Below are positions 10,901-12,485 of a stretch of 47,694 nucleotides of DNA, piece after piece; the stretch's first letter is position 1, and every line of letters starts with the position of its first letter. The notes below the pieces were generated by a model, which had not been told where the DNA came from, did not search any database, and saw only the letters and a list, made by a program, of their open reading frames with translations. Made by a program: the position numbers and the translations under genes. The stretch covers positions 1-47,694 of IMG/VR virus record IMGVR_UViG_3300031659_000020; one strand, given 5' to 3'. Origin of the DNA: a virus.

Positions 10901-11098
10901 TTACAACACCTTAATTACATCAGACTTTTTAACTTCGACAACCTCGAATTCAACTGAGTCGTTTGCAAAATCCTTATTTACAATTGCTTCTGCATCTGTA
11001 ACTGATACAGCTGAAACTAAGTAAGCTTCTTTTTTCCACGTTACTTTGTTTCCTGTGTCCGTGGCAACTTTTACTCTTGCTAAATAATACATATCCAT
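10901..11098 (-). CDS. Small protein resembling DUF4494
   Basis: The 65-residue product reads YYLARVKVATDTGN, then KKEAYLVSAVSVTDAEAIV, then FEVVEVKKSDVIKVL. This beta-strand, helix, beta-strand layout recalls DUF4494, a family I remember mainly from Bacteroidetes and their phages. The assignment is from memory and moderate. Function is unknown. It follows the tRNA-like RNA by 35 nt and could be processed from the same transcript as the recombinase gene. A further 25 codons stay open in frame after its TAA stop. Confidence 0.6.
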   Translation of the reverse strand: MDMYYLARVKVATDTGNKVTWKKEAYLVSAVSVTDAEAIVNKDFANDSVEFEVVEVKKSDVIKVL

Positions 11099-11133
11099 AA
11101 CTTTTTCTTTTTTTTATTTTTAATATAATAATA

Positions 11134-11352
11134 ACTATGCGGTGGGATTCGAACCCACAGTTTTTCAAGCACTAATTGTGTTGGCTAAAAACTTAAAAAA
11201 GCCATATAGTTCCTGCGCTCTTTAGGAACTTGAGGACGATATTATCGCCTCGGTTTAACCTAGTTGATTACAAGTAATCGTTAAGGTTGCGTATCTCCAA
11301 GATGGTACTTCATGTTTTATATTCACGTCAACCATCATTCCGCCACGCATAG
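11134..11352 (-). ncRNA. tRNA-like RNA of 219 nt with a long structured insert (tmRNA-like or intron-interrupted tRNA)
   Basis: The ends form a tRNA. The 5' strand CTATGCG (11352-11346) pairs perfectly over 7 bp with CGCATAG (11141-11135). T8 and G9 are followed by a D-arm with 3-bp stem GCG/CGT and a GG-containing loop. A perfect T-arm is present (GTGGG, TTCGAAT, CCCAC, 11158-11142). The discriminator is T and no CCA is encoded. No anticodon arm with U33 follows the D-arm. In its place are about 165 nt containing an AACCT/AGGTT stem around GATTAC/GTAATC, a GAGG-CGAT/ATCG-CCTC stem, a 7-bp AGTTCCT/AGGAACT hairpin and a TGGCT/AGCCA hairpin. The RNA starts 6 nt after the recombinase stop. A compact tmRNA or a tRNA (Leu-like D-arm) with a very short intron are the main options. 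Confidence 0.7.
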
Positions 11353-11357
11353 CATTA

Positions 11358-12485
11358 TTATCCTATTGGCACATCGCCGTTTCCTATTTCGATATCATCG
11401 ATACCTAAATTTTCTGTTTGATATGCCATTATCAATGTTTCACAAATCTTCTTATAGATTCTGTCTTTCCTTTCGGGGTCTGAAAGAACCAGTCTTTCAA
11501 AGTCTTTTGACAGAAACTTTATCTCTTTACCAGATACCTCATCAGTATAAGTATACCACGATCCCCCTTGTTTTATGAGACTATAGTCTTTTAATACCTG
11601 AAGCCATCCACCAAAGTCATCTATTCCAGATTCGAAATAAATGTTGAACTCCGCTTCTCTTAACGGTGGTCCCATACGGTTCTTTACAACCTTAGCTTTA
11701 GTTTTAATACCTATAACTTGTTCTTTACCCTGAACCTTTGCTTTAATCTGGCCTGCAGCCTTAAGTCTTAATCTGCAACTAGCGTGGAATTGTATTGCTT
11801 TACCACCTGAAGTAGTATATTTGTCACCAAACATAACACCTAGCTTTTCCCTTAGCTGGTTTGTAAAGATCAAACATACTCTTTCTCTACCAATTAACTG
11901 TGTGATCTTTCTCATTCCTTTTGACAATACAATTGCTTTTGATGTAGCCCAACCTTCTTTGTCATAATCCTGAGCTTGTTCAATCTTTGTAGTTGCTGCA
12001 GCTACTGAATCTACTGCAATTGATACCAATCGGTTTTTGTCTGATTCTTTAACCTTTAAAATTATATTTTCAATAACTTCAAAGATATCTTCTACAGCCT
12101 CGAGTTGTATATAAAGCATTTTGCCTACGTCCATTCCTATAGCAGATAAAAAGTCTTCGTTCATAGCATTTTCAGTATCTATGTATACAGCAAGACCTCC
12201 CATTTTCTGGGTGTTTGCAAGGCAGTGGGCGGCAATTAGTGATTTACCAGAGGCTTCCATTCCAGTAATTTCGGTAATTCTACCTACAGGTAAACCACCA
12301 TTGGGCCTATTAGAAATAGCTAGGTCAAGTAGAGATGAACCTGTACTTATCCATTCAGTCAAGTCGGTGGGAGTGTCTTCCTCACCATCAAGAAAGTATG
12401 CAACTTTCATTCCTTTGAACTGTTTGTTTAATGAGTCAGCTAATACGCTGGCCAACTCATCTCTATTTTTCTTATCCTTTGCCAT
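11358..12485 (-). CDS. uvsX: RecA/UvsX-type recombinase
   Basis: The 375-residue protein has Walker A GMEASGKS (residues 75-82), Walker B-type VSIAVDSVAA, the switch segment IFTNQLREKLGVMFG, and TTSGGKAIQFHASCRLRL, all close to bacterial RecA. The C-terminal WYTY region also follows RecA. It is more RecA-like than T4 UvsX, but the role (strand exchange, recombination-dependent replication) and the position beside the single-strand binding protein match T4. Shine-Dalgarno AGAGG precedes the ATG. The 11-nt gap after the binding-protein gene suggests one transcript from the site near 13290. The tRNA-like RNA begins 6 nt past the stop. Confidence 0.93.
   Translation of the reverse strand: MAKDKKNRDELASVLADSLNKQFKGMKVAYFLDGEEDTPTDLTEWISTGSSLLDLAISNRPNGGLPVGRITEITGMEASGKSLIAAHCLANTQKMGGLAVYIDTENAMNEDFLSAIGMDVGKMLYIQLEAVEDIFEVIENIILKVKESDKNRLVSIAVDSVAAATTKIEQAQDYDKEGWATSKAIVLSKGMRKITQLIGRERVCLIFTNQLREKLGVMFGDKYTTSGGKAIQFHASCRLRLKAAGQIKAKVQGKEQVIGIKTKAKVVKNRMGPPLREAEFNIYFESGIDDFGGWLQVLKDYSLIKQGGSWYTYTDEVSGKEIKFLSKDFERLVLSDPERKDRIYKKICETLIMAYQTENLGIDDIEIGNGDVPIG

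Follow-up and report, generated by a model that had tools for sequence, protein, structure and literature searches.

A uvsX-linked tRNA-like RNA family without an anticodon loop in marine T4-like phages

A clade of marine T4-like phages was shown to carry a structured RNA family, its members roughly 200 nt long, that retains the shell of a tRNA, has lost the anticodon loop and is strictly linked to the recombinase gene uvsX. The D-loop of the tRNA shell bears a hairpin, a second, capped hairpin takes the anticodon position, and one more hairpin and two interleaved pseudoknots complete the structure. Covariation among homologues gave good support for a new RNA family that is tRNA-like yet neither tRNA nor tmRNA. 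Neither Rfam nor the literature searched contains an RNA linked to uvsX that has a tRNA elbow and two new pseudoknots. The RNA cannot decode mRNA, and its existence suggests that phages put tRNA shells to non-decoding use. It may be excised from the 3' end of the uvsX mRNA and act as a tRNA mimic; this would be the best explanation, held with about even confidence, with a purely cis-acting 3' element close behind in likelihood.

Locus, homologues and inheritance

The window, which is the whole stretch of DNA analyzed (47,694 nt, an IMG/VR virus record), belongs to a T4-like myovirus according to its terminase, portal, major head and sheath proteins. The nearest named relatives by terminase were Microcystis phage Mel-JY01 (59%) and Flavobacterium phage immuto (54%), and a Bacteroidota host is plausible. 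The window contains 20 occurrences of the motif TATAAATA, where 7.5 would be expected; most of them lie in intergenic gaps and on the strand opposite to that of the genes. A reading made from the sequence alone had placed a tRNA-like RNA at 11134-11352, and the sequence is present there on the minus strand, starting 5 nt past the uvsX stop codon (Table 1).

Table 1. Coordinates of the RNA, its parts, its neighbors and the RNAs compared with it
Feature	Position	Strand	Remark
uvsX / RecA-like recombinase gene	11358..12485	-	Pfam RecA 3.7e-57; directly upstream of RNA
Outer helix P0, 5' strand UAAUAAUG	11353..11360	-	First bases are the uvsX stop codon
tRNA-like RNA, acceptor 5' end to nucleotide 73	11134..11352	-	Coordinates of the sequence-only reading
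Acceptor stem P1, 5' strand CUAUGCG	11346..11352	-	Covariation
D-stem, 5' strand GCG	11341..11343	-	Covariation GCG/CGC to GUG/CAC
D-loop insert hairpin (GAUGGU...ACCAUC)	11301..11336	-	36 nt; loop AUAUAAAA; CAAAA in short forms
D-arm, 3' half UUGGAGAUACGC	11289..11300	-	G18G19 and D-stem 3' strand CGC
P3 hairpin, anticodon-arm position	11257..11288	-	CUUG tetraloop here; UNCG-type in short homologues
P4 hairpin GAGGCGAU/AUCGUCCUC	11232..11251	-
P5 hairpin AGUUCCU/AGGAACU	11208..11230	-	Two-sided changes in all six inner pairs
Pseudoknot 1, 5' strand GAGCGC	11215..11220	-	Within P5 loop
P6 hairpin GGCU/AGCC	11183..11203	-	U-tract loop
Pseudoknot 2, 5' strand AGUUUUU	11187..11193	-	Within P6 loop
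Pseudoknot 1, 3' strand GUGCUU	11167..11172	-
Pseudoknot 2, 3' strand AAAAACU	11159..11165	-	Adjoins T-arm 5' side
T-arm GUGGG-UUCGAAU-CCCAC	11142..11158	-
Acceptor stem P1, 3' strand CGCAUAG	11135..11141	-	Two-sided changes in 6/7 pairs among homologues
Outer helix P0, 3' strand UAUUAUUA	11126..11133	-
DUF4494-like downstream gene	10901..11098	-	Pfam E 5.6e-6, just under cut-off; neighbor differs among homologues
Post-uvsX ncRNA-like element of other lineage	L057 2038-2260, L058 2623-2835, L059 1823-2030, L060 2531-2750, L061 1050-1265
T4 RNA C ('species 1 RNA', rnaC), 139 nt	NC_000866 70908-71046		L221; with L222-L224
AGTCAGG shell frame, near-constant	L109-L143, L233-L385		AGTCAGG-TGGCGGAAT..GGTAGACGC..ACAGG-TTCGAAT-CCTGT-CCTGACT-A

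A search with UvsX as bait yielded 80 loci, and a complete recognizable RNA was identified directly past the stop codon in 31 of them, representing 24 distinct sequences. Scanning IMG/VR for RNA patterns independently of uvsX added L086, L103 and L108; these scans recovered only uvsX-adjacent copies, except L109, a member of a separate class named after its AGTCAGG motif. Homologues of the window RNA were thus present in about 34 IMG/VR contigs, every one directly behind uvsX (three loci in the opposite orientation were the same contigs as L004, L006 and L007). All copies started approximately 5-13 nt after the uvsX stop codon, and the T-arm was located 177-247 nt from the uvsX end across the copies found. 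The gene 3' of the RNA differed among homologues (DUF4494-like, small secreted-like proteins or tRNA-Glu, the last directly after the RNA in L033-L035), while uvsX was constant.

On a tree of 60 UvsX proteins the RNA required three gains or losses, compared with a mean of 18 after shuffling. The main UvsX subclade retained the RNA in 18 of 18 rows, and some neighbors were without it (L031, L036, L041 and L049). The small number of gains and losses shows that the RNA was mostly vertically inherited, in strict linkage with uvsX. BLASTN against a collection of named phages found no homologue of the RNA; Mel-JY01 has a 68-nt gap after uvsX without the RNA core, and immuto gave no match to the covariance model. 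Matches from a scan of genome contigs were rejected as mostly chance spans across ordinary tRNA-Leu genes.

Another lineage (L057-L061) carries a different conserved ncRNA-like element at the same post-uvsX site, comprising a helix that closes it and a hairpin resembling a terminator. Two-sided changes were observed in 10 of its 30 predicted pairs (five sequences), and none of the four sequences scanned matched Rfam.

Structure and covariation of the RNA

The RNA strand folded at -61 kcal/mol (z = -3.3), which none of 200 shuffles equaled. Covariation was counted in an alignment of the 24 distinct sequences on a 39-pair structure including both pseudoknots, in which 95.9% of the alignment cells were paired. 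Two-sided changes were found in 24 pairs, compared with 15.2 in shuffled alignments, and the covariation score was 0.458, compared with 0.166 for shuffled alignments and 0.06-0.10 when the partners were slid. The observed covariation was attained by none of 500 shuffles; because it is present in 24 distinct homologues, chance is ruled out.

The elements of the tRNA shell described by the sequence-only reading were all found, namely an acceptor stem paired 7/7 (CTATGCG/CGCATAG), a 3-bp D-stem (GCG/CGC) and a 5-bp T-arm with a TTCGAAT loop. That reading had proposed to look for compensatory changes among relatives, and these are present: six of the seven acceptor pairs showed two-sided changes, and T-stems of several kinds were paired 5/5 in all 24 sequences. 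Six or seven acceptor pairs were formed in 19 of the 24 sequences, the weaker ones being L013, L025-L027 and L029. Among these, the acceptor of L025-L027 and L029 is reduced to 3 bp; a bulge separates it from an outer helix of 11 bp (AAUAAUAAUCA/UGAUUAUUAUU), of which the uvsX stop region is a part. The D-arm is of the class II (Leu-type) kind, and its 3-bp stem was present throughout (24/24) as GCG/CGC, GUG/CAC or AUG/CAU. In the D-loop hairpin the stem varied and the loop was constant in most members, as AUAUAAAA or CAAAA. A T4 late promoter was considered for the AUAUAAAA loop and rejected, because the short homologues lack this loop.

The absence of an anticodon loop, also noticed from the sequence alone, was confirmed. 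No anticodon stem with a 7-nt loop and U33 was found in the P3 position, and ARAGORN made no call either; a hairpin, usually capped by a tetraloop, is located there. The P3 loops were mostly the tetraloops UACG, UGCG, UAAG, UUCG, CUUG and CGUG, with other loops in L033-L035 and L108 and long loops in L013 and L024. In L008, L016, L020, L025 and L026, P3 is no more than a tetraloop hairpin of 14 nt, which is of the UNCG type in L008, L016, L020 and L026. All members retained the tRNA elbow (U8, G18G19 and the UUCGAAY T-loop) and, therefore, the elbow was kept while the decoding end is gone.

The end of the acceptor was less constrained across the 24 sequences. Nucleotide 73 was not conserved (U10 A7 G4 C3), nucleotide 1 was G in just two, the 1:72 pair was not conserved, and no encoded CCA pattern was found at the 3' end. 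A charged, CCA-ended tRNA-like end is therefore unlikely as a selected trait. The 3:70 pair was Watson-Crick in 20 of the 24 (A-U, G-C or U-A) and unpaired in the remaining four, and it was G-U in none.

The stems proposed for the insert (AACCT/AGGTT, GAGG-CGAT/ATCG-CCTC, AGTTCCT/AGGAACT and (T)GGCT/AGCC(A)) were all recovered within the minimum-free-energy fold. The pairing AGTTTTT/AAAAACT, which had been taken for an alternative, is instead a pseudoknot helix compatible with GGCT/AGCC. The sequence-only reading had overlooked the 36-nt D-loop hairpin, the second pseudoknot (GAGCGC/GTGCTT) and the outer helix to the uvsX stop codon. The 3' strands of both pseudoknots are located just 5' of the T-arm. 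Pseudoknot 1 was paired 6/6 in all 24 sequences though its sequence varied, with GAGYRC/GYRCUU in most members and GAUUAC/GUAAUC or GACUAU/AUAGUU in others. Pseudoknot 2 was AGUUUUU/AAAAACU in most members; the variants AGUACU/AGUACU, AGUGUUU/AAACACU and AGUGCU/AGCACU all paired, and one end pair was open in L033 and L035. The U-tract ahead of the U-rich pseudoknot 2 strand might engage in U-A-U triples. A shift of the alignment in L033-L035 and L108 is the sole reason why P6 counts as unpaired in these loci, where inspection by eye reveals stems of the GGGCU/AGCCC type and GGUU/AACC stems.

The outer helix P0 forms in most lineages between the 3' flank and the stretch that runs from the uvsX stop codon up to the acceptor. 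Since its 5' strand starts at the stop codon, the uvsX stop codon itself is base-paired. The mean P0 energy was -4.6 kcal/mol with a phage's own flanks, compared with -1.8 kcal/mol when flanks were swapped between phages. P0 was absent in L010, L012, L017, L018 and L033-L035.

Possible roles of the RNA

The suggestion of a new tRNA-mimic RNA on the recombinase mRNA was supported by the structure and by the strict uvsX linkage. In the model that we favor, the RNA would be co-transcribed with uvsX and would fold after the ribosome leaves the uvsX stop codon. A coaxial T-acceptor-P0 helix of 20-23 bp, together with the elbow, may be recognized by host nucleases that process tRNA or dsRNA, and RNase P and/or RNase III could release a stable small RNA. 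Its pseudoknotted core would act as a rigid tRNA mimic and, more speculatively, might occupy a tRNA-binding host or phage factor. The copies of L033-L035, directly before tRNA-Glu, and T4 RNA C, which ends in an acceptor and T-arm, also speak for this model. However, the variable nucleotide 73, the lack of CCA and the rarity of G at nucleotide 1 tell against both aminoacylation and processing as a typical RNase P substrate, and L025-L027 and L029 have other pairings in place of the 7-bp acceptor. The strict post-uvsX position is equally compatible with a cis-acting mRNA element that is never excised, a reading in which we place distinctly less than even confidence. As such an element, the P0-P1-T helix and the pseudoknots would form a 3' barrier that may block 3'-5' exonucleases, insulate uvsX from the variable downstream genes or sense termination at the uvsX stop codon. 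The short distance of all copies from that stop codon, the start of P0 at it in most lineages, the constancy of uvsX beside changing downstream genes, the unconserved acceptor end and the members without a 7-bp acceptor all point in this direction. The full tRNA elbow in all members exceeds what a 3' barrier needs, though, and neither the seven loci without P0 nor the copies of L033-L035 that precede a tRNA gene agree well with it.

The remaining explanations are far less probable. The acceptor, T-arm and pseudoknots around an absent anticodon arm resemble a compact phage tmRNA, as the sequence-only reading had proposed, whose task would be the rescue of stalled ribosomes, and the window copy does offer a readable frame, GCA ACC TTA ACG ATT ACT TGT AAT CAA CTA GGT TAA. 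This sole candidate tag frame is located in P3, which shortens among homologues (the five loci with the 14-nt hairpin), so that no tag is conserved and there is no room for one; a tmRNA of normal form is thereby refuted. A D-stem is present in 24/24, a G3-U70 pair in none, and ARAGORN called no tmRNA in the window or at about 70 loci, and nothing at all at the window RNA. Rfam 15 gave no family above the gathering threshold for the window RNA, and at E<=10 neither tmRNA (RF00023) nor group I intron (RF00028) matched it; the sole match was the T-arm to the tRNA model RF00005, with 15 bits against a cut-off of 29. We consequently regard a tmRNA as very improbable. A tRNA-Leu gene split by a small intron, of group I or another kind, was also suggested from the sequence alone, and its class II (Leu) D-arm and an insert where introns occur would agree with it. 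The insert, however, covaries as one conserved structure, pairing with the segment immediately before the T-arm, a hairpin occupies the anticodon position, no halves of an anticodon loop flank the insert, and a second insert is present in the D-loop, which leaves the intron even more improbable than the tmRNA. Least probable of all is a functionless, decaying tRNA relic: tRNA genes do get lost from phage genomes, but almost all helices show compensatory changes and the RNA is retained across the clade, both of which are incompatible with neutral decay.

Comparison with known tRNA-like RNAs

The window RNA shares with tmRNA (RF00023) a tRNA-like acceptor and T-arm, several pseudoknots and the absence of an anticodon arm, and differs from it by a D-stem, the lack of a tag frame and of G3-U70, and a different order of helices. 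Class II (Leu-type) tRNAs (RF00005) have the same kind of D-arm (TGGYGGAAU..GGNARACRC), U8, G18G19 and T-arm, and the 7-bp acceptor found in most members of the family. The window RNA differs from these tRNAs by its D-loop hairpin, the missing anticodon loop, about 125 nt of extra pseudoknotted core and the variable nucleotide 73. The tRNA-like structures of plant RNA viruses are aminoacylated, are located at the 3' ends of genomic RNAs and have an acceptor arm that contains the pseudoknot. Both they and the window RNA are viral 3' regions that imitate tRNA by pseudoknots; the window RNA, in contrast, belongs to a DNA phage, its acceptor is an ordinary helix and its pseudoknots are in the core. 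No description of a uvsX-linked tRNA-like RNA was found in the literature searched.

T4 RNA C has been described as a late expressed RNA of unknown function (PMC9697503; PMC12685909). Like the window RNA, it has a 5-bp T-arm with a UUCGAAU loop at its end, a D-loop insert and no anticodon arm. Among four relatives, a pair of the 7-position acceptor changed between A-U and G-C, a T-stem pair was G-C, U-A or A-U, and UUCGAAU was present in three. RNA C differs by two U-U mismatches in the acceptor, the lack of U8, a different core and a location in a tRNA cluster instead of behind uvsX. The window family's covariance model R1 matched T4 rnaC with E 0.24 and 0.87; this weak match was driven by the T-arm and so does not establish common descent of the two. 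The window family nevertheless offers a testable handle on the old question of RNA C function, and on which host factors a tRNA elbow alone engages.

AGTCAGG-TGGCGGAA tRNA-Leu shells around unrelated inserts of widely differing length were found in at least 120 stretches of phage contigs. The matches listed include 135 distinct RNAs of 69-278 nt with a shared acceptor, D-arm and T-arm and unrelated insides, although the longest may cover two adjacent shells; N73 was A in 118 of these 135. Most RNAs of the class, among the matches listed, are not recognizable tRNAs; three shorter ones passed the Rfam tRNA threshold, so a few may be unusual tRNAs. The shells often occur several per genome, and one contig had seven shell-pattern matches. 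Examples are L115/L233 in IMGVR_UViG_3300008110_000040, L118/L236 and L279, where 3 kb contain five shell matches. This class resembles the window RNA in its Leu-type D-arm, T-arm, acceptor and non-tRNA insert, with a D-loop insert in many, and differs in its near-constant shell (AGTCAGG/CCTGACT, A73), unrelated inserts and lack of uvsX linkage. The R1 model gave no convincing match to the window-type core in it, the one match with E 0.02, in G014, covering a T-arm-like stretch. The two groups have a common design principle and no shared core, and homology is not claimed. Considering the shells of T4 RNA C and of the AGTCAGG class, the uvsX-linked RNA may belong to a wider, so far unrecognized kind. 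We tentatively suggest, with somewhat less than even confidence, that tailed phages bear natural tRNA-scaffolded RNAs, in which an anticodon-less Leu-like shell protects and presents a structured payload, and that the uvsX-linked, AGTCAGG and RNA C types are lineages of them.
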